The translations under genes were made by a program, and so were the position numbers. Of a stretch of DNA of 35,002 nucleotides, positions 1-30,326 are shown piece by piece. The notes under the pieces are model-generated. The model was not told the origin of the DNA, ran no database searches, and saw nothing but the letters and a program-made list of their open reading frames with translations. Position 1 is the stretch's first letter. The number at the start of each line of letters is the position of its first letter. The stretch lies in the IMG/VR virus record IMGVR_UViG_3300017720_000024, positions 1 to 35,002 of that record. One strand, 5' to 3'. This stretch comes from a virus.

Positions 1-772
1 GTATACTTTGTCTTTCTTCTTCTGTTGTAGCAACCCTCAGTTGCCTGTCAAGATCTGCTATTCTCTCGCCGTACTCTCTAGTTGATTTTTCTTCTACGTC
101 TAAATAACTTTCAAACTCGCTAGAGTTTAATATTTGAGCTCGCTTTTTTTCAAGCTCATCTTCCGTTAAGTTACTTAATTCTAAACCTTTGTCATTAACG
201 TACTTAGAAAAAGCTTTGTTTTGGTTTATTTGGTTTACTTTTTTATGTATATTGCTATCAAAGCCGGGCGCAGCTTCAACTCTCTGCGTTTCATCAGCAG
301 CCGCGAACGAAGCGTTGTTTTGATCTAGCAGCAGTCCGTAATCAAGGCCTCCGCCTTCTAGTATAGGTGATTTATCTCTAACATCCGTGCGGTTAGCTTT
401 GTCGGCTTCAAACTTTTGAAAAGTACTGTAGTCACTATAGTACTGGTTAACAGCAGATATACCACGTTCGTTGGCATCTTCTGTTTCAGATTCATCAAGC
501 CTTGCTTTATTGAAAGACTCTTCTAAATTACTTAAAGCCGTAGGTTGTGCTTCTGCAGGATCTTCAATGGCGCTAGTTTCGACTTGTGACGCCGACGAAC
601 CATCGTCCGAAGCGGATGCCGTATTGTTTTCCGTCACAGGGGCATCCACCTGTGTTTCGACTTCCTTTGATGAAGCTTGTTTTTCTTTATAAGCTTTAAC
701 TACAGCTTTTATTTTGTTTTCAGGCTCACCAGCGTCTATCATCTGTTGAACTACTTCTCTAATATCTGCCAT
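1..772 (-). CDS. Putative virion-associated protein, N-terminal part (runs off left edge)
   Basis: The reading frame opens with ATG at 772 and stays open to the window edge, so about 257 N-terminal residues are present and the C-terminus is missing. The start (MADIREVVQQMIDAGEPENKI) follows the upstream gene's stop as TAG-T-ATG, which supports this start. The first 35 residues look like a short helical motif with a KAVVKAYKEKQ segment. After that comes a low-complexity acidic Ser/Thr/Ala/Glu/Asp linker, then charged helical sequence with many Gln, Lys and Glu. I see no enzymatic motif in the visible part. It sits last in the tail/ejection gene run, where short-tailed phages usually encode large internal virion proteins, and that is my inference for it. 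It could equally be any large virion protein. Confidence 0.6.
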   Translation of the reverse strand, partial: MADIREVVQQMIDAGEPENKIKAVVKAYKEKQASSKEVETQVDAPVTENNTASASDDGSSASQVETSAIEDPAEAQPTALSNLEESFNKARLDESETEDANERGISAVNQYYSDYSTFQKFEADKANRTDVRDKSPILEGGGLDYGLLLDQNNASFAAADETQRVEAAPGFDSNIHKKVNQINQNKAFSKYVNDKGLELSNLTEDELEKKRAQILNSSEFESYLDVEEKSTREYGERIADLDRQLRVATTEEERQSI

Positions 773-773
773 A

Positions 774-1895
774 CTATTCTATTCCTTTTAAATAGTCATC
801 AACGGATTTGTCTGTACCGCTGTTGTCCTGGTTTTTTTTCGTCTGTTCTGCTTGTTGCTTAGCAAATCTAAAAAAATAATTTTCTAAAACAGATCTGCCT
901 ATGTTTTCGTCTTCTTGTATTTTCTTCAGCATAAACTCCTTGTCTTCTGGAGATATATTGTCGTACCAGTTTGTTTCACCTTCATCTGCTTTTATATTAA
1001 ACTTGGCTAAGTCTTCAGGCGCTAGCAACTCTTTGTATTTTAAGTTGTCTATTTCGCCAGATATATCATCTATAACGCTTCTACCAGTAGAGTCTAATCT
1101 ATCTGAAAACAACGACTTAAAGTCTTTAGTATTTAGATTATTACCTATTTGCCTTCTAATATCATCAGCATCGAAAGCCTCACTAGCTTTAGCATTAGCT
1201 TTTACAGAAGTAGCTAGATTACCTATAGCTAGATCAAACTCTGTAGCTTTAGGAACTAGCATGTCGTCTAGCTCTTGCTTTGTTCCTATAAAAAAATCAG
1301 GAGGTCCCATTTGACCTTCTTTTGGCGGAAGCTCTATTTTATACATTTTCTCTCCATCATCATTATCAAAAGGCTCTGCTTTATTGTTGTAGAAAGCTTC
1401 GTTTAGCTCAACAGCTCTTTGATCAGTAGCGCTACTATACAAAGAATTGTTTTTATTTTTATCCATGCTAAAATCTTTAAAGCCTTTAGCTGTAAGCTTG
1501 TCAGACTCAACTTGAGTTTTAACACCAGTAATATATGAGTTAAAATCTCTCATTAGACTAGCTCTCTCTTTATCATCTTTAGTGTTTAGTATTTTTTCTC
1601 TTAAATCCATGACTTTATCGTAGCCATAGTTATATTCGTTTTCACCAGGACCAGCTGCCTCAAAAGCTTCAATACCAGCTTGCAACTTACCCTCTAACTT
1701 TTCAGCCTGCTCTTTCTTTTCTTTTATAGCCTCATTAACAGGTTCCATACCTATTTCCTGAAGCTTGTCAGTAAAGCCTTCAAAACCTTTAGATTCAAAC
1801 TCACCTACACCAGCCGCGGCTTGTGAAGCTCTGTTTAGTCTCTTCATATTAGCCTCGCTAGGGCCTAAACTTATTCCACTTTGTTTTTTTGCCAT
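774..1895 (-). CDS. Hypothetical virion-associated protein, 373 aa
   Basis: A highly charged, soluble protein starting MAKKQSGISLGPSEANMKRL. It is predicted mostly helical by eye, with Lys/Glu-rich stretches (roughly residues 55-75) and an acidic middle. No signal peptide, membrane segment or catalytic motif is visible. It lies between the gp14-like internal protein and the partial left-edge gene, and its stop is coupled to the next start as TAG-T-ATG. By position it is probably an internal-core or ejection protein of the virion, but the sequence itself does not show a function. The short leader before the ATG is A/T-rich without a Shine-Dalgarno sequence, as throughout this module. Confidence 0.65.
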   Translation of the reverse strand: MAKKQSGISLGPSEANMKRLNRASQAAAGVGEFESKGFEGFTDKLQEIGMEPVNEAIKEKKEQAEKLEGKLQAGIEAFEAAGPGENEYNYGYDKVMDLREKILNTKDDKERASLMRDFNSYITGVKTQVESDKLTAKGFKDFSMDKNKNNSLYSSATDQRAVELNEAFYNNKAEPFDNDDGEKMYKIELPPKEGQMGPPDFFIGTKQELDDMLVPKATEFDLAIGNLATSVKANAKASEAFDADDIRRQIGNNLNTKDFKSLFSDRLDSTGRSVIDDISGEIDNLKYKELLAPEDLAKFNIKADEGETNWYDNISPEDKEFMLKKIQEDENIGRSVLENYFFRFAKQQAEQTKKNQDNSGTDKSVDDYLKGIE

Positions 1896-1907
1896 ATCTT
1901 TATTAAT

Positions 1908-2543
1908 TTACCCTAGAAAAGATCCTTCTAAATCTACATCGCCTTTTGCAAGGCTACTACCAACGCCTGCTATATCACCTATACCAGACCACATTTGTTG
2001 ATCTGCAGCCGCCACTGCTTGTTGTTGGTTAGCATAATCATCAGCTGCCATACCCATTAAAGTGTTTGTTTTATCAGCTACCATTTGCCTAGACATAATG
2101 TCACCTTCTCTTTCTAAACCTTGAAGCCTTGAAGCTTCTTTTCTTTCAAGCGCTTGGTTTTTTTGTTCTTGTTTACCTATAGACACGGCTGCTTTACGAG
2201 CGTTATCTGATCCTTGATTAGCTAGCGTTTGTGCTAGCGCTGCAATACCAGATCCACCAGCGGCGCCTCTCATGTCTGCCAATATATTAGCTTGAGACTG
2301 AGCTTGCTTTTCAGCAACAAACTGAGCTTCTTCTTGGTTGACGGTTAAGTCTTCCATAGTGTTTTCCATGTTAGTATATGGATTTGAAGTGTCTAAGTTT
2401 TTGAAAGCCTGCTTTTGGGCTTCAAGCTCTGCTTGCGCGGCCGCTGCAGCTGCTTTAGCTTTTTTCTTTTTTACACCGCCAGATATTGCTTTAGCTCCGC
2501 CGGCAACCGCCGCAATTCCTAGTCCTACTGCTACAAACGACAT
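1908..2543 (-). CDS. Internal virion protein, T7 gp14-like in character
   Basis: This 211-aa protein begins with a hydrophobic Gly/Ala segment (MSFVAVGLGIAAVAGGAKAI), followed by a KKKKAKAAAAAAQAEL helix. The rest is Gln/Ala-rich helical sequence with long amphipathic stretches and a Gly/Ser-rich C-terminus. That layout, an N-terminal Gly/Ala membrane-active segment plus a long Ala/Gln helix, is typical of the small internal core/ejection proteins of short-tailed phages (T7 gp14 class). These leave the capsid and help form the DNA conduit through the envelope. The position downstream of the tail genes fits. The assignment is by composition and context, not by clear sequence identity. Confidence 0.6.
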   Translation of the reverse strand: MSFVAVGLGIAAVAGGAKAISGGVKKKKAKAAAAAAQAELEAQKQAFKNLDTSNPYTNMENTMEDLTVNQEEAQFVAEKQAQSQANILADMRGAAGGSGIAALAQTLANQGSDNARKAAVSIGKQEQKNQALERKEASRLQGLEREGDIMSRQMVADKTNTLMGMAADDYANQQQAVAAADQQMWSGIGDIAGVGSSLAKGDVDLEGSFLG

Positions 2544-2547
2544 ATTA

Positions 2548-3162
2548 TTATTTTTTAGTTAGTTCAACATTTAAACCTAGCTTTTCAGCTAGGCTCTGTA
2601 TTTCATCTAAGCAAATTGCTTCGTCATTAAAGCTTTTTGCTATTACTTCTTCTTCTACTTCTTCTGGAGTTTTCTTGTCTGTAGCGTGAACAGTTACAAA
2701 CGTACAAGGCTCGTGAGTATATATAACTCTTTTAGTTCCGGCCTTAGTTACTCCATGGTGAGGAGCCTCGACATCAACAACACCATCTTCTGTTAGTATT
2801 GACATCTTGCCACTCATTAAAAAGTATGGGTGGTCAACCTTATGTATTTTAGTTACTAGTAGCATATTAGCAGGATTATATATCTCTCTAATATAACATC
2901 CACCAGCAAACGTATGTTTTGTTGGGTTAGCTTTGTAAAGCTCTTCTCCAACCATGCCACCTTCATTCTCTAGTTGCTCGTGCAACTCTGTAATCCTTTG
3001 TCTGTACTCTTGCTTCTTTCTAATCTCTTGAGCTACTTCCCAAGCTTCGTCGAAAGTGAAGGTATGTTTCAGACCTAGTTTTTCTGTTTGTTCTATAAAT
3101 TGTTTCCTTAAATCTTCTTTAGATAAAGGATTATTTATAGCTTGATCGTTAATATGTTCCAT
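2548..3162 (-). CDS. Cupin-like virion-region protein
   Basis: This 204-aa protein has an N-terminal charged helical part (residues 1-75). A beta-rich core of about residues 86-160 follows: the segments AGGCYIREIY, ANMLLVTKIHKVDHPYFLMSG, SILTEDGVVDVEAP and KRVIYTHEPCTFVTVHAT alternate strands and turns as in the cupin/jelly-roll fold. Histidines in the core (HKVDHPYF, APHHGVTKAG, THEP) could bind metal but do not match the classic cupin motif exactly. The C-terminal 40 residues are helical and acidic. It sits inside the tail gene run, 4 bp upstream of the gp14-like gene. Cupin-like proteins in marine phage structural modules are known, but their role is unclear. A tail-assembly role or a sugar/ligand-binding role is possible. 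Confidence 0.6.
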   Translation of the reverse strand: MEHINDQAINNPLSKEDLRKQFIEQTEKLGLKHTFTFDEAWEVAQEIRKKQEYRQRITELHEQLENEGGMVGEELYKANPTKHTFAGGCYIREIYNPANMLLVTKIHKVDHPYFLMSGKMSILTEDGVVDVEAPHHGVTKAGTKRVIYTHEPCTFVTVHATDKKTPEEVEEEVIAKSFNDEAICLDEIQSLAEKLGLNVELTKK

Positions 3163-3192
3163 TAAATTAAATTTACTATAATATAGTTACAC

Positions 3193-3579
3193 TTATTTGC
3201 TGCTTTCAAAAGCATCAACAGTGATATTAAACAACTCTGCAAATTCTGTAGAGTTATTTTTAAACTTAAACTTACCAAAATAGCCTAACATAGATTTGAA
3301 GTCGTGGCAATTATCTTTGCTAAACAAAACAAATAAAACCTCAGGCCTATCAGGATGTGGCTTAGGCGTTGGTATTTGAGCAGCGTACAAAGATGTTTCG
3401 ACTGTTATTGTATTGCTACCTCTATTAATAGACGTTATTATACCTAGCTTGGTTATATCCTGCTGGTTTACATTGAAGCCACTGTTAGCCACAGCAACGA
3501 CAGCATAAGCCATGTCGCCTACAGAGACAGAGTCTTGTATAGTATAATCAAATTGTAGTGTTAAAGTAAATGTCGGCAT
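3193..3579 (-). CDS. Hypothetical tail-region protein, 128 aa
   Basis: A small, beta-rich protein (MPTFTLTLQFDYTIQDSVSVG...) containing a strand-rich half with the run KLGIITSINRGSNTITVETSL, which looks like a small beta-barrel turn. The C-terminal half has FVLFSKDNCHDFKSMLGYFGKFKFKNNS. Its start overlaps the stop of the 421-aa appendage gene as TAATG, so the two are probably translated together. No catalytic motif is visible. Position suggests a small virion or chaperone protein for the appendage; the sequence does not prove this. Confidence 0.65.
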   Translation of the reverse strand: MPTFTLTLQFDYTIQDSVSVGDMAYAVVAVANSGFNVNQQDITKLGIITSINRGSNTITVETSLYAAQIPTPKPHPDRPEVLFVLFSKDNCHDFKSMLGYFGKFKFKNNSTEFAELFNITVDAFESSK

Positions 3580-4844
3580 TATGATAATGTTATTATATCG
3601 TCAATAGCTATTGTGTACGCTTGATTGTAAGATCCAAACTGGTCTACTTTAAACAAACCTTTTACAGTTAAAACATTAGCGGCAAAAGTTGTAGTTAAAT
3701 CGTCTAGTCTAGCGTATGGTAATATTAAGTTGGTTCCGCTAGTTGTAGACGGATTAGATAAGTTTGTGGTTAAAGCATCCGCCGTCTTACTTGCGCTTTT
3801 TGTCGCGGCGCCACCACCTGGGCTAGCTGTGAAAGTGGCGGTTAGCTCAAAGTAGTTATATCCTGGCTGCCCATGCATATCAGCTGACGTTAATTCTGGA
3901 ACTATGTTTAAATCTCTAGGCCACTTAAACTTAGAAGTTGCTTTAGGTTTTTTACCAGGTCTGTCAGTAAAAGTTACAGTACTACTAGGTATAGTCCAAT
4001 AAGCTGAGTTACTAGCACTGGCTAATGCAAGTGTTATAGTGGTGTCTACTCTTCTAAGTAAAACTAATGGATTTTTTTTAGTAGGCACTTTTGCCTCTAG
4101 TTTTGTTTCTACGCCGATTGGTTCTATGTAAAAATGATAAGTGGTATTAGCTGTTATTTTAGGAAAATTAACCGCTAAAGCGTTTTTCTCAATATTAACA
4201 AACTTACCTGCCTTATCAACACGTCTTGCTTTAGTAGAAAAACCGCCGTTAGTAAAGTTGTATTTTTTATTAGAAGTTATATCGTGCAGCGTCACATCGT
4301 AGACAGCCTTGTCTCCAGCTTCTACTTTCAATGGTACATACTTAGGGTCTGTAGAGTCTGGAACTTCAAGAATAGCCTCGTGCACTGTATGAGCGTCGTT
4401 TACGTTTACAAAATTGTTGTGGCCAATAGGATCGTTAACAAAAATACATGAGCCATCATCTTCGTTTGCATTAGCGTTGTAATTAGCAGCCGTAGAGTCT
4501 GTGCAGCCTCGTACTACTTCTTCTACTACAGGTTGAATTTTTCTATCAATATCTATTAGTATATTGCCTGTGTTTTGCGTTAAAGCAAAGGCGCTGTGAT
4601 GTACTGCGGCATTAACAGTTCCATTGTTGTTGCTTGTAAATACAACTTTACTTACAACAGAAGAAACGTTACCCCCAACCCATCCTCCTTGCGAAAAGCC
4701 TGCTCCACCAATTGAAAACTCAGTGGCTACTAAAGAATCTCCAGAGTTATGAGTTATAGTTAAGTTAACTATTCCAGCTGGTATTATGTCACCTATGTCT
4801 CCTAATAAATCAAATTCACTTACGTTACAATCTTGTACTGCCAT
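3579..4844 (-). CDS. Putative tail appendage protein with GCTD...DDGSC motif
   Basis: A 421-aa, Thr/Ser/Asn/Gly-rich, beta-dominated protein. The N-terminal ~105 residues look like a beta-sandwich. Residues 113-133 form a cysteine-bracketed Asn/Asp motif, GCTDSTAANYNANANEDDGSC, of the kind repeated in surface and secreted proteins of marine Bacteroidota. Its Asp/Asn spacing suggests calcium binding. The remaining ~290 residues are beta-rich with Thr-rich strands and no coiled coil. It starts one base after the nozzle gene's stop (TAA-T-ATG) and overlaps the next gene by TAATG. Position after the tail nozzle and the surface-protein motif argue for an adhesin or tail fibre/spike component. No receptor-binding or hydrolase motif is recognisable, so the role is inferred. 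Confidence 0.6.
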   Translation of the reverse strand: MAVQDCNVSEFDLLGDIGDIIPAGIVNLTITHNSGDSLVATEFSIGGAGFSQGGWVGGNVSSVVSKVVFTSNNNGTVNAAVHHSAFALTQNTGNILIDIDRKIQPVVEEVVRGCTDSTAANYNANANEDDGSCIFVNDPIGHNNFVNVNDAHTVHEAILEVPDSTDPKYVPLKVEAGDKAVYDVTLHDITSNKKYNFTNGGFSTKARRVDKAGKFVNIEKNALAVNFPKITANTTYHFYIEPIGVETKLEAKVPTKKNPLVLLRRVDTTITLALASASNSAYWTIPSSTVTFTDRPGKKPKATSKFKWPRDLNIVPELTSADMHGQPGYNYFELTATFTASPGGGAATKSASKTADALTTNLSNPSTTSGTNLILPYARLDDLTTTFAANVLTVKGLFKVDQFGSYNQAYTIAIDDIITLS

Positions 4845-4845
4845 A

Positions 4846-7800
4846 TTAAATCCAGTTTTGTCCTTGGTTACCTACGCTAGAGTCTTTTACAATTACTCTT
4901 TTAGGCTGAGGTGGTTGTACTTCAGGATTACTATGTGTAATAGTAGCTTCACCTATACCTTGCACGGTAAATTCTTTTTCATCTAAGTTATTAAAGTCTG
5001 TACACTCTCCTTTAATATAATTAAACCATTTTCCTTCTCTATTTAAAAACTCAGGAACCTTAGCGTCTTGAAGGTCCGAGTTAGCTTTTTCTACAAACCA
5101 GCCTGCTTTTGAGTTAAGATTATAGTATTGGTCATCATCAACATGCCTTAGTATTCTTGATTGAGTTCCTTCGTACTTAATAGTCTGAAAGTTCTTAACA
5201 GAACTTGGCGCATCGTTAAATATTAATTCTACATAAGAGTGCTCGCTGTCTGTAGGATTTACACCATAAAAACTATTTCTAGTTTCGTTAGTGTGGTGTT
5301 TCCACATTGAGCCGTTTTTAAATGTGTAGTAGTTGTTGTTTACGCCAACGCCAGACTCAGGCAAAAAAGACTTAAAGCTAACCCAACCTTTAACTTGCTC
5401 GTTGTAAGTTATAGTTGCTCCGATTTCAGCTCTACCTCTTTTAGATTTATTTTGTATAGTTAAATTGTAGTTGTCTTTCCTTTGATCAAAAGTACCTATC
5501 AACCTAAGATTACTTGCGTTGCTAAAAGCATCGGTAAAGTAATCTTTCATACCATAATCTGATACAGGCGTCATGCCATCTTTTGATAATCTAATAACGG
5601 CTGCTCTCTGAGTATCTGTAAAATAACATCTATATTTGTCAGCTGCAAATGACTCAGGATTTTTTGATATACCATAGTCTCCAGAAAAAGGAATAGCTTG
5701 ACCAAGAACTCTATTAGCGGCGGTTAGTCTAGCATCTCCGCCAGCTTCGAATATAGCGTCTTTGTCAGAAAGCACCTTTAATACTTTATCTTCACAAAAC
5801 GTTACAATGTCTGTGTCTCTAGTAAACAGCTTTTGTATACTACCATTATCTGGCTCAAGATCCTTTGTTATAGGCTCTGCTTGAATAAATTGATTTAATC
5901 TATTGACACCAGATATACTATTGAATATTCCTGAAAATATAAGGCCTTCTGATCTTCTTTCTTCTTTGTATTGCTCCGCAATAGTAGTAGAAGCTTTAAC
6001 ACCATTAGCTATTTGTGATTGGTTAAAGTCGTCTCTAATTCTATCAGACTCAACTCCGTTTCCAAATGCGTAGCAGTTATTCCAAGGAAGCTTTATGTTT
6101 GTAAAAGAACTATGAAATGCCGTGGAAAACTTAATGCTGCTAATTCCTTCTCCTGATTCTAGTGCAATTAAATTTACTTCACCGCCGTACCCATCATTAA
6201 AAACTAAAGAGTCGCCAGTTAAAACATCAACGCCATCAACTATGCTGATAACTCCTTCTGAGATAGCATCGTTAACCCCTATGTTTTTTACAATAGAAGC
6301 AACTTCTAATTCTACTCCGTTTATAGATATTAAACTTCCGTAACCAGGCAATATAGCTGTTTCGTGATTATTGCTTGTTATCTCTACTGGGTATGCTCTG
6401 CTTATTTCGTAGTATATATCTAAGCCAATATCCTCTTTAGGCTTTGTTTCCCATATAGCTGGATTTTCTGAAGAGAATCCTTGATCATCTTGGTATGGCC
6501 CCATTATTTCTAATACAGTTCCTTTACTACCATCGTGATTAGCATTTCTTCTAGCGTCGTATATAGTTGTGTTAGACTTAATAGTAAACTTTTGTCTTCG
6601 ATTCCACGACCACCAATAGTCTTCGTCACCAAAGTTAAAGTCTGTTTTCTGTGCGTTTATTATGCCCCAGTGTCTGTAGTGATCTACAGTTTCGTGTATT
6701 CTTTTATCAGGATCATCTCTCCACCTCCACTTACAACCAGGTATTAGAAGCAAGCTCATAAACTCGTATAAGTTTTGGTTGTTACCGTTTTCCAGATGTA
6801 TTGGGTCCATAAAATCCATTCGTTTAGGATCATCATTTAATATGTCTTTCCAATCGTCTTCATGTGTGTCTGGAGCTACAAAACCACCTGTTATAGATAT
6901 ATCCATATAGTTTGACCAAATACCTCTTGATCCGTTTTGAGCCCAAGAAGGAGCTTGAGGAGCGCCAGAGGTGTGGTTCACTGTGTTTGGCGAGCTAGCA
7001 TTGTCGTTCCACTCTGTGTATTCTAGATCAAGGCCAAAAGTGTTAGTTACTACTTGACCAGGCGCAGAGTGCCAATCTGTGTTGTCTCCATCTAATCCAC
7101 CTTCTATAGTGTCAGGTAGGTGAGCCCAGCTTAAAGCCCAAGCATCATCTATAAACGCTGTAGCTTGACCTCCTTTAGTAAAGTATCTATTCCAGAAACT
7201 TTCAGCTCTACCATCACTAGCAAAATCAGCAATCGTTAAAGCAACGCCATATTGGATAAGAAGCGCGGGGGTCAATAGCAATAAAGCAGCATTATTATCT
7301 TCAAAACCTTCACTGGCGTTACCAGCCTCCCATGTTCCTTTGTATATTCCCCAGTCGCCTCCATTAGTAGCTAAAAAATTACCCAAAGCACCATTACTTT
7401 CTTCAAGGTTACCGTCGTTGTTTGGCTGGTTTGACACTTCACTTAAATTACCTGGCACCGATTCGTCGTCTGCCCAAGTGTAGCCAGAGTTATATGGGTG
7501 AACATGGTTGAGGCCAGCTATACCTCTAACATAATCGTTTCTAGTATTAGCGCCCGGGAAGTTTCCTAAACCAGAAGTGTCGTTGTCTGTGTTTTTTAAA
7601 CCCGCCGTACCACCGGTATGCATGTCGTAAGTGTGTAGATATTTCATATCATAACCTCTTATCACGACTAAGTCGTTATCGTTAGTTACCATTATAAACT
7701 GCTCTACAGTAGCATCTCTAAATATTTTAACAAAAAACTTACCGTCAAACTCTGGTTTGTCTTCAAATTCATCGTGAGTTATTACTAACTGTAGTCCTGG

Positions 7801-24637: not shown

Positions 24638-24895
24638 TTAATCTACTAGTACAATATCACTTGACTTTATAACAAAATAAAACTTATCTTCAAATTCTAT
24701 TCCGTGGCCAGCGTGACGATCATACCATACAATATCGTTTTCTTTTATTACTTCAACTAAACTACCTGCAGATATGATCTTACCTTTAAAGTATCTTATC
24801 TCTTCGTCTTTAGCTTCGTCTAATATTAAACCGCTTTTTGTTTTCTTGTTTTCTTTTATTCTATCTACTACTACGTAGTGGTTAACTGCTTTCAT
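24638..24895 (-). CDS. groES: GroES-like co-chaperonin
   Basis: An 85-aa protein with the GroES layout: [18 protein letters not shown] matches the N-terminal strands (compare the usual PLHDRVIV). KTKSGLILDEAKDEE matches the mobile loop with its hydrophobic GLIL docking tripeptide, and FKGKIISAG matches the RGEVLAVG segment. NDIVWYDRHAGHGIEF corresponds to the VGDIVIFNDGYG region, and IKSSDIVLVD is the terminal strand. It is about 10 residues shorter than bacterial GroES, mainly in the roof loop. The start overlaps the end of the groEL-like gene by 14 bp, so both are translated from one mRNA. The lid protein for the phage chaperonin is the obvious role. Confidence 0.88.
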   Translation of the reverse strand: MKAVNHYVVVDRIKENKKTKSGLILDEAKDEEIRYFKGKIISAGSLVEVIKENDIVWYDRHAGHGIEFEDKFYFVIKSSDIVLVD

Positions 24896-26447
24896 TTACA
24901 CGTATATTTGAGATTACACAATCAGCTGATATAATAGTTGATACTACACTAACAGCATTTTTCAGCGCCGATTTTGTAACCAAAACCGGATCTATAATTC
25001 CTGACTCAACCATATTAACTTCTTCGCCAGTAACTACGTTCACGCCCACGCCAGTATCTTCAGGGTAGCCTAAGGTTTCAAACCCAGCGTTAGACATTAT
25101 AGTAATGAAAGGAGACTTAATAGCGTTAAGCATTATCTCTTCACCCACGTTAGTGGGTTCGATTTTTTGAGAAGCGTTAAGTAATGCTATACCTCCACCT
25201 GGCACTATACCTTCTTTGAGGGCAGCTTTTGTAGCGTATATCGCATCTTCGACCCTGTCTTTCTTTTCTTTAAGCTCAACCTTAGAGTTTGCCCCAACAC
25301 GGATAATTCCAACACTACCAGATAACATAGACAATCTTTGTTCCAACTTCTTTTTAAGGAAAGCATTTTTTTCATCTGCAACTAATTTAGCAACTTGATC
25401 TATTCTTTCACCTACAGCCTCTGTGTCTGACTCTAGAGTTATAACAGTGTTCTTATCGTCAGTCTCAGCGTACTCTGCTTCACCTAAATCTTCAGGCGTC
25501 ATGACATCTAAGTCATCTCCTAACTCTTCATTAAATAGTGTAGCGCCTGTTAGTATAGCTAAGTCTTCACAAGAGTCTAGCTTAGTAGGTCCAAAGCCAG
25601 GTAAGTCTACAATGTTTATTTTTATATTGCCTTTAACCTTGTTCATTAACAACGCAGACCTTACTTGTTGAGATACTGGAGCTACTATAAGTAAAGATCT
25701 GTTTTGCTTTATAACATGTTCTAGTATGCCTTGTATTTTTCTTACGTTAGGTATTTCAGATGTGCATATCAATACTAAAGGATTATCAAGTTCTGCTTTT
25801 TGTTTATCAGTGTTAGTAACAAAGTGAGGTGAAGTTAGTCCACAATCAAATTGTATACCATCCACAGTCTCAACATAAGTCTCGTCTGTCTCTGATCCTT
25901 CCATAAGTACAACCCCGTCCTTACCTACTACAGTGTAAGCTTCAGATATAATAGATCCTAAGGATTTATCGTTGTTACAACTTATAGAAGCTACGTGAGA
26001 AAGCATGTCGTCACTAACGTCTATCTTTATAGATTCTAAATAATCTACAACTTTGTCAAGACCTGACTGTAAACCTTGCTTAAGTTCTCTTATAGTAGCT
26101 TTGTCCATAGAATTATAGACATGTGTAAGTAATGATTCAGCTAAAACAGTAGCTGTTGTAGTACCATCACCTGCTTCTCGCACCGTATTGCTTGCAGCCT
26201 CTTTGATAAGTGTAGCTCCAATGTTTTCTACAGGGTCGAATAATACTACAGACTGCGCTACAGTAACGCCATCCTTAGTAATAACAGGGTTTCCTCGTGC
26301 ATCTTCGTAAATTACACATTTACCAGAGGCACCAAGGGTAGATTTTACTGCTTTTGCTAGTTTGTTCACGCCAGATATGACGCGATTTTTTGCTTCATCG
26401 CCAAAATTAAGGTCTTTGACGATCTCGCTAGGGAGATTGTATTCCAT
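24882..26447 (-). CDS. groEL: GroEL-like chaperonin
   Basis: A 521-aa group I chaperonin. Nucleotide-binding residues are kept: the P-loop-like STLGASGKC (37-44), ITKDG with D59 (E. coli D52), GDGTTTAT at 93-100 with D94 (E. coli D87), RVEDA with D401 (E. coli D398), PGGGIAL at 416-422, and IIDP with D486 (E. coli D495). The usual Pro after TLG is Ala here. The C-terminal Gly-Gly-Met tail is absent; the protein ends soon after [10 protein letters not shown], about 25 residues short of bacterial homologues. It folds phage (probably capsid/tail) proteins in the cytoplasm with the adjacent GroES-like lid. It precedes groES here, the reverse of the normal bacterial groES-groEL order. Confidence 0.95.
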
Positions 26448-28238: not shown

Positions 28239-28427
28239 TTATTTTTCGTTAGGAAAAGGATTGTAAACTTTTTCTTTTAGCTTACCGTATCTTTTAGTAT
28301 TAGTCTTACCTTTAGCCTCAAGCCTTCTTAAACGCTTTAGCTTTTTCATTTGTTTTTTCTCTCTACGTTCTTCTTTCTTGTTATCAGGTTCGTTGAAGAA
28401 CAGAGGACCATTCATTTTATATGTCAT
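28239..28427 (-). CDS. Small basic protein, 62 aa, first gene of the leftward operon
   Basis: Starts MTYKMNGPLFFNEPDNKKEE and continues with a run of Lys/Arg/Glu (RREKKQMKKLKRLRRLEAKG). The N-terminal M(A/T)(F/Y)K(M/L) motif resembles those of the 22939-23385 and 23390-23758 proteins. As the first gene after the divergent region it should be at the start of the late transcript. The Lys/Arg density suggests nucleic-acid binding, but no known motif is present. Confidence 0.5.
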   Translation of the reverse strand: MTYKMNGPLFFNEPDNKKEERREKKQMKKLKRLRRLEAKGKTNTKRYGKLKEKVYNPFPNEK

Positions 28428-28466
28428 GACTATAGTATCACTTAAAAAAGTACATTATAAATATAG

Positions 28467-28530
28467 GGGTAAAGTGTTGCCCCCCTACCCCCCTCCCCCA
28501 CCTCCCACACAAAAGCCAAATCGTTTACCC
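28467..28530. promoter_or_regulatory. Divergent intergenic C-tract/G-quadruplex motif inside an inverted repeat
   Basis: Between the divergent late (minus) and early (plus) modules lies a pyrimidine tract at 28480-28506 with C runs of 6, 6, 5, 2 and 3. The minus strand therefore carries four G runs of at least 3, enough for a G-quadruplex. The plus strand could form an i-motif. A 7-bp inverted repeat (GGGTAAA at 28467-28473, TTTACCC at 28524-28530) flanks it. Such a tract is striking in AT-rich DNA. It could control divergent transcription, act in replication or packaging, or be neutral. Function not shown. Confidence 0.6.
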
Positions 28531-28567
28531 GGCCCCACCTTCATATTTCCATTTCGTTTCATTTACG

Positions 28568-28598
28568 AAGCGAATACGAGACGTTTTAGATAATATAT
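28568..28598 (+). promoter_or_regulatory. Repeated early promoter-like element, copy 1
   Basis: Bipartite element (AAGCGAATAC - 11 nt - GATAATATAT), a diverged copy of the module's consensus AAATAAATAC - 11 nt - GATAATATAA. It lies 31 nt before the first early ORF (25 codons) and just downstream of the C-tract. Confidence 0.7.
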
Positions 28599-28629
28599 TT
28601 GTAATCAATAACAAATTAAAATTAATCTT

Positions 28630-28939: not shown

Positions 28940-29164
28940 ATGCAATTAACTAAAAACAGATTTACAATAGCTAAATCACTAATCGGAAAGAATGCTATCA
29001 TTACATTCACAAACAAAAAAGGTGTTACATATACTTATGATCACGATGCAGTTTACTCTGCTAATCAAGAAAAGTTTGAAACTATGCAATGCTTCCAACA
29101 ATATGGTAATTACACTAATAGTAACAATTTACCAACGTTCGCAAGAGAGTTTACTGTTGAATAA
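28940..29164 (+). CDS. Small protein, 74 aa, paralogue of 30093-30326
   Basis: Begins MQLTKNRFTIAKSLIGKNAI and includes the segment ITFTNKKGVTYTYDHDAVYS, then NQEKFETMQCFQQYGNYTNS. The 77-aa protein at 30093-30326 matches it along its length (FTNKKG, YDHD.VY..NQEK.ETM.CFQ.YGNYT.SNN.P), giving two paralogues in one early module. It reads as a small beta-rich domain with a conserved acidic/aromatic core. No catalytic or metal-binding motif is evident. Each copy has its own promoter-like element. Function unknown; possibly a host-takeover protein. Confidence 0.75.
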   Translation: MQLTKNRFTIAKSLIGKNAIITFTNKKGVTYTYDHDAVYSANQEKFETMQCFQQYGNYTNSNNLPTFAREFTVE

Positions 29165-30092: not shown

Positions 30093-30326
30093 ATGTCAAA
30101 CATAGTAGAAAAAAAGAGATTTGTAGTCTCAAAAGGATTAGTAGGTAAAGAAGTAGTAATACAATTTACAAATAAAAAAGGTGATGTCATCAAGTATGAC
30201 CACGATGGTGTCTACGCTCTCAATCAAGAGAAACTAGAAACTATGGAGTGTTTCCAAAAGTATGGTAACTATACTTCATCAAACAATATTCCTTCATGGG
30301 CGAAAGGTGCTCAAATTGAAGAGTAA
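30093..30326 (+). CDS. Small protein, 77 aa, paralogue of 28940-29164
   Basis: MSNIVEKKRFVVSKGLVGKE at the start is followed by FTNKKGDVIKYDHDGVYALN, then QEKLETMECFQKYGNYTSSN. This is the second copy of the 74-aa family, with the conserved segments kept and several conservative changes elsewhere, indicating an old duplication. Its codon use differs between copies, so the duplication is not recent. The downstream neighbour, after the first tRNA-like element, is the second 37-aa paralogue. Function unknown. Confidence 0.75.
   Translation: MSNIVEKKRFVVSKGLVGKEVVIQFTNKKGDVIKYDHDGVYALNQEKLETMECFQKYGNYTSSNNIPSWAKGAQIEE

Follow-up and report, generated by a model that had tools for sequence, protein, structure and literature searches.

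A candidate late promoter with a variable G-rich segment at the early/late divergence of a marine Bacteroidetes phage group

The closest described systems to the locus reported here are phages whose late genes are served by a sigma factor of their own. In Salmonella phage 7-11, late promoters are used by host RNA polymerase together with the phage sigma SaPh711_gp47, and the gp36-dependent middle and late promoters of phiEco32 consist of a single element, tAATGTAtA, both as described in one account (PMC8948821). Among late promoters read by phage sigma factors, those compared here whose starts have been mapped belong to enterobacterial phages. Flavobacterium sigma-A promoters pair a TAnnTTTG −7 box with an upstream −33 TTG (PMC9723704). 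G-quadruplexes (G4s) in herpesvirus promoters have been reported as conserved and regulatory (PMC6651000); a limited literature search turned up nothing on G-quadruplexes in the late promoters of bacteriophages.

Here we analyze a 35,002-nt stretch of viral DNA (the window). It represents part of a podovirus genome, and the terminase of this virus has its relatives among phages of Flavobacterium, Cellulophaga and Tenacibaculum. At the point where its early and late genes diverge lies a C/G-rich tract, which we followed through related contigs.

The C/G tract and its genomic setting

A first-pass annotation had singled out 27 bases with C runs of 6, 6, 5, 2 and 3, and the tract does stand out. 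On the + strand (28480–28506) it reads CCCCCCTACCCCCCTCCCCCACCTCCC, and a C-tract pattern with three mismatches allowed matches the window only there and none of 100 dinucleotide shuffles. Its described position between the late side and the first early promoter copy is also borne out: the tract occupies the gap between the first late ORF (− strand, from 28427) and the first early promoter repeat (+ strand, from 28563). The complementary strand is G4-capable by motif, as annotated. With a strict G4 motif defined as four runs of at least three Gs and loops of 1–7, the tract (28506–28480, late-gene − strand) is the sole example in the 35-kb window, with a G4Hunter score of 3.0. Ordinary base-pair folding programs returned nothing unusual at the tract (z = 0.09), no Rfam family matched near it, and BLAST of the tract region against phages gave no meaningful match. 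A poly-G sequencing artefact is unlikely, given the interruptions in the tract and the presence of equivalent G-rich tracts in many metagenomes.

Relatives were gathered by searching IMG/VR with the terminase and GroEL, which gave 160 loci, and with a DNA pattern for the conserved core described below, which gave 41 stretches, mostly new. Apart from the window, 83 loci (more than 80 related contigs) carry an element containing the tract position at the divergence point, with place and orientation unchanged, and the core pattern is single per genome in all 12 genomes matched. Conservation by column was computed from 58 non-redundant elements in an ungapped alignment, with the core as the only anchor. 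Some of the sampled loci had been retrieved with a pattern demanding GGGGC plus the core; the share of strict G4 motifs is unchanged in loci found via GroEL or terminase alone (12/38). A degenerate pattern missed its positive controls and was used solely for one contig found with it.

The near-full-length genomes of the group are organized as two divergent operons. In the closest of them, G001 (66,881 bp), late genes run leftwards from the element and early genes rightwards over 18 kb, at 35–53 kb; late genes also occupy this strand at the other end of the contig. The early operon, as seen in a near-full-length relative, encodes a DNA ligase, a helix-turn-helix (HTH) protein, a sigma factor, ERF, a PD-DExK protein, a TOPRIM-helicase, thymidylate synthase and ribonucleotide reductase, with no DNA polymerase gene recognised. 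In the window, a promoter-like motif, ACAAAATAAATACGA-N8-AGATAATATAA, stands at 28563–28610 and in about ten further copies to 34141, before early genes. The first copy (+ strand) was recognised through direct-repeat family D4, with related copies across the early region, and through a TAnnTTTG scan, and contains TATATTTG at 28594–28601. For the early gene adjoining the divergence, a 74-aa ORF (28940–29164, + strand), the 66.9-kb relative has a homologue in the corresponding position. The product of the window gene and a second short early protein (30093–30326, 77 aa) are paralogues with a common TNKKG...YDHD.VYA.NQEK.ETM stretch.

The late operon includes GroEL (24882–26447, 521 aa, Pfam Cpn60), which is common to the whole group, and a GroES-like 85-aa ORF (24638–24895). 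A giant late gene is present in two parts at the G001 contig ends, one of 2,393 aa (1–7182, equal to L205:1-7182) and one of 1,513 aa (62228–66769, equal to L208:6228-10769), which perhaps make up one protein of ~3,900 aa. This protein matched nothing in PHROGs, and its only Pfam hit (DUF5763) fell below threshold; as for an N4-type virion polymerase, neither half matched a polymerase family in PHROGs or Pfam. Giant proteins are encoded at the matching place in elemo and MW202828.

An imperfect 46-nt inverted repeat, GTGACAnnAGCCTATTAAG-N6-TAGTAACAGGCTAnTGTCACACTTTT, is likewise conserved, in few copies per genome (29168–29213 in the window). Copies follow the first early gene, immediately precede the HTH–sigma genes and lie just downstream of the candidate late promoter, where the window's copy is degenerate. 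Other copies lie at L086:7363 and L207:1548, and in about 30 relatives the repeat lies ~40–47 nt after the core start (for example L097:1558, L102:1373 and L116:6821). The repeat shows no covariation, which makes a DNA-binding site more likely than an RNA hairpin; it is perhaps a candidate binding site of the HTH protein.

Parts and spacing of the late-strand element

The element spans ~90 bp, is present in single copy on the late strand at the early/late divergence, and points into the late operon. Its parts follow one another in a constant order: a G-rich A box, a TTTT box, a G-rich segment of fixed length, the bipartite core GGGGCWACRC-N8-TATATTTATAAT and, ~30 nt further on, the first late gene. 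We number positions relative to C1 of the core; all window coordinates in this section refer to the − strand unless stated otherwise.

The A box (GGTGGGGCCGG, 28529–28539) is a G-rich block at −60 to −50 whose columns carry 0.5–1.5 bits in the 58 elements, and its offset stays within ±1 in 76 of 79 loci. The TTTT of GGCTTTTG (T4 box, 28511–28514, −35 to −32) is 84–93% T at three columns across the same elements, and in 73 of 76 loci its position shifts by no more than ±1. The G-rich segment (28484–28510), fixed in length and variable in sequence, separates the T4 box from the core; together with the next four bases it contains the G4-capable tract. The −35-like half of the core, GGGGCAACAC (28474–28483), opens with GGGG (−4 to −1), which is the promoter-proximal end of the tract and is complete in 50 of the 58 elements. 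The conserved columns C1 W2 A3 C4 R5 C6 follow, and conservation reaches 86–98% at GGGG, C1, A3, C4 and C6. The −10-like half, TATATTTATAAT (28454–28465), resembles TAnnTTTG and is conserved at 53–98% per column.

Spacing within the core is invariant, with exactly 8 nt between the halves in 84/84 loci. A few lineages carry an altered middle or −10 half (L089, L093, L118, L120, L142, L160 and G015). The exact −35/−10 register within the core is uncertain. Downstream, the first late gene (a 62-aa ORF, 28239–28427) has its start codon at 28427, ~30 nt from the −10-like box, and its order after the element is kept in relatives.

The tract had also been described as enclosed by an inverted repeat, GGGTAAA/TTTACCC. 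The repeat is there in the window, with 7-bp arms at 28467–28473 and 28524–28530 (+ strand), but it is not a property of the group: arms of at least 6 bp occur in 3 of the 58 elements, and complementarity is no higher than between arms swapped from one element to another. We therefore rejected a conserved inverted repeat. The arms look like a chance match of the A box with the core-promoter spacer.

Variation of the G-rich segment

From the aligned sequences, a strand-biased G-rich segment is favoured in the element. Between the T4 box and the core, base composition is 45% G against 11% C; 56 of 58 elements have more G than C there, and none of the 58 has a G4 motif on the opposite strand. Strict G4 motifs are found in 18/58 elements against 10.9 expected from shuffled spacers (1.65 times more). 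The elements hold 27 such motifs, all on the late strand; outside the elements, the same loci have 3.3 per Mb of strand. In the 66.9-kb relative, too, the sole strict motif is the one in the element. The remaining 40 elements lack a strict G4, and several have no G runs at all (L092, L095, L131 and L133); the core and its spacing persist in elements without a strict motif.

At the level of sequence, the tract shows little conservation beyond composition, which counts against the annotation's reading. Among relatives at 75–85% GroEL identity, tracts are 36% identical, against 31% for shuffled tracts, whereas the −35-like half is 81% and the −10-like half 79% identical; core identity thus stays near 0.8 where that of the tract has dropped to 0.36. 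Mapped on the GroEL tree, G4 capability needs 14 changes, compared with a mean of 14.55 for shuffled labels, and 136 of 300 shuffles gave a count as low. The refuting observation that the annotation had named, free variation in length or absence from close relatives, is borne out only in part: length does not vary freely among relatives but is fixed; the full set of G runs, on the other hand, is missing even at 87–96% GroEL identity (L084 compared with the window, and L042 compared with L043). Taken together, the elements retain tract length and strand bias but neither tract sequence nor G4 capability. On the same evidence, G4 folding is not required.

Candidate regulators and readings of the element

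Near-full-length relatives encode a sigma factor in the early operon, "early" being meant by operon position. Pfam recognises Sigma70_r4 in 17/17 and Sigma70_r2 in 15/17 members, and the protein matches PHROG 351 (sigma). Its best PDB profile match is FliA (1rp3), over residues 29–243, nearly the whole length, at E 2.5e-13. A predicted model (mean pLDDT 73, pTM 0.43) has sigma factors as its fold matches in the PDB. All near-full-length genomes with the element have the gene (14/14), and so does a fifteenth, G015, for which the sigma was seen first and a variant element was then found at the divergence. Element and sigma co-occur in 15/15 near-full-length genomes known to carry the element; as all lie within a single clade, common ancestry by itself could account for the association. 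The sigma was not detected in the isolated phages elemo, MW202828 and phi38:1, and the element was not found in those of their regions that were compared. The window ends before the sigma region, and the sigma gene of its own phage is therefore one that we infer. Distances between cores and between sigmas are uncorrelated (partial Mantel r = −0.04, p 0.62, n = 15 genomes), which leaves the sigma–core part of the mechanism as a step that we likewise infer.

Adjoining or close to the sigma gene is that of a 212-aa HTH protein (L207:1585-2223; G001 43584–44222), which matched no known family and gave no significant match in a fold search. The upstream boxes covary with it in an exploratory comparison (partial Mantel r 0.39, p 0.008), an association that is weak after correction for the ten partial tests of which it is one. 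Mantel tests of the tract against the proteins gave no signal.

We favour, with moderate confidence, a reading in which the tract forms the upstream portion of the group's only late promoter, and RNA polymerase bearing the phage sigma probably recognises this promoter. Host RNA polymerase carrying this sigma would recognise the core GGGGCWACRC-N8-TATATTTATAAT, to which the last four Gs of the tract would belong, and late transcription would start at about 28440–28455 (− strand), roughly 15–30 nt upstream of the first late gene. The A and TTTT boxes would be bound by an activator, perhaps the HTH protein whose gene adjoins that of the sigma, and the G-rich segment would act as a spacer of fixed length in which a G bias helps while neither exact runs nor G4 folding would be needed. 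Against this reading, the phage sigma could act on other promoters. A reiterated promoter for a phage polymerase was considered and rejected, since the core is single copy. Of the role in transcription that the first-pass annotation had suggested, what survives is a tract at the junction of the two units that is part of a conserved late promoter-like element; G4 or i-motif folding is not a conserved feature of it.

The −10-like half bears on a serious rival, in which host sigma-A polymerase and a phage activator read the late promoter while the phage sigma acts elsewhere. TATATTTA, in the core, is one mismatch from the Bacteroidetes TAnnTTTG box (PMC9723704), the upstream boxes resemble activator sites, and the weak association of these boxes with the HTH protein points the same way. 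However, the −33 TTG is absent, the long and strongly conserved GGGGCWACRC stands in its place, and G occupies the eighth −7 position in 19% only; we regard this reading as possible but doubtful. If instead the G-runs themselves were functional, a G-quadruplex on the non-template strand would regulate the late promoter, for example by gating polymerase binding or easing DNA opening. The lone strict motifs of the window and the 66.9-kb relative, the density and strand of the motifs in the elements and their excess over composition-shuffled spacers all speak for such a role, yet most elements do without the motif, G4 capability does not follow descent on the GroEL tree, and the core and its spacing outlast it, which makes this account unlikely. 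Equally unlikely is a viral late promoter in which a fixed-length, G-strand-biased, fast-turnover module, in some lineages a true G-quadruplex, stands between an activator site and a phage-sigma core and forms an evolvable dial of the early-to-late switch that needs no conserved sequence.

Two further readings place the element outside gene regulation. As a replication origin it would combine initiator boxes with a G-rich strand, and transcription from the core would provide a primer or be secondary. The element is single copy and sits at the sign change of GC skew, AAACG-like repeats lie upstream, and the relative's early region, in which no DNA polymerase gene was recognised, does encode the TOPRIM-helicase. 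The skew is nevertheless fully confounded with gene direction, the core has the shape of a bipartite promoter directly before late genes, and the initiator is only putative, so that we consider an origin quite improbable. A packaging site or genome end, also raised in the annotation, is very improbable. Some shorter contigs of different metagenomes do end within ~20 nt of the core (L002:1, L083:1, L158:1, L161:1 and L226:1), but these ends fit assembly breaks at a variable G-rich tract, the terminase gene is ~8 kb away, and 12 contigs of 59–70 kb run through the site and carry the core internally at varied positions, which argues against a fixed end.

Read as a late promoter, the element would give an uncultured marine Bacteroidetes phage group, seen in many metagenomes, a concrete late-gene switch made of one element, a candidate sigma and a candidate activator. 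Its G-rich segment is a natural series that runs from near-pure G runs to none at constant length and suits tests of G-quadruplexes in a bacterial-type promoter. It also carries a caution: a striking G4 motif seen in one genome may prove to be the variable portion of an element whose conservation lies in its other parts.

Compared with the systems described at the outset, the group shares with phage 7-11 a podovirus identity, host-type early promoters, a phage-encoded sigma and a bipartite late promoter (PMC8948821). The host of 7-11 is not a Bacteroidetes bacterium, and the promoter here is a candidate one. The core sequence differs from the 7-11 late promoter, GTAAtg-(16)-aCTA, which occurs eight times in that genome as opposed to the single copy here, and the available part of the 7-11 description gives no upstream boxes or G-rich segment, both of which the present element has (PMC8948821). 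With phiEco32 the common point would be that a phage sigma switches on late genes; as far as the available text describes it, phiEco32 uses a one-element promoter and a sigma without region 4, in contrast to the two-half core and the sigma with regions 2 and 4 found here (PMC8948821). The likeness to Flavobacterium sigma-A promoters lies in the −7 box, represented by TATATTTA in the core and TATATTTG in the first early promoter of the phage (PMC9723704). Unlike those promoters, the element has Gs and CWACRC upstream instead of a −33 TTG, and fixed upstream boxes besides. Finally, herpesviruses and this phage group both place a G4-capable run in a viral promoter region; in herpesviruses the G-quadruplexes are reported as conserved and regulatory, whereas here G4 capability comes and goes between relatives (PMC6651000).
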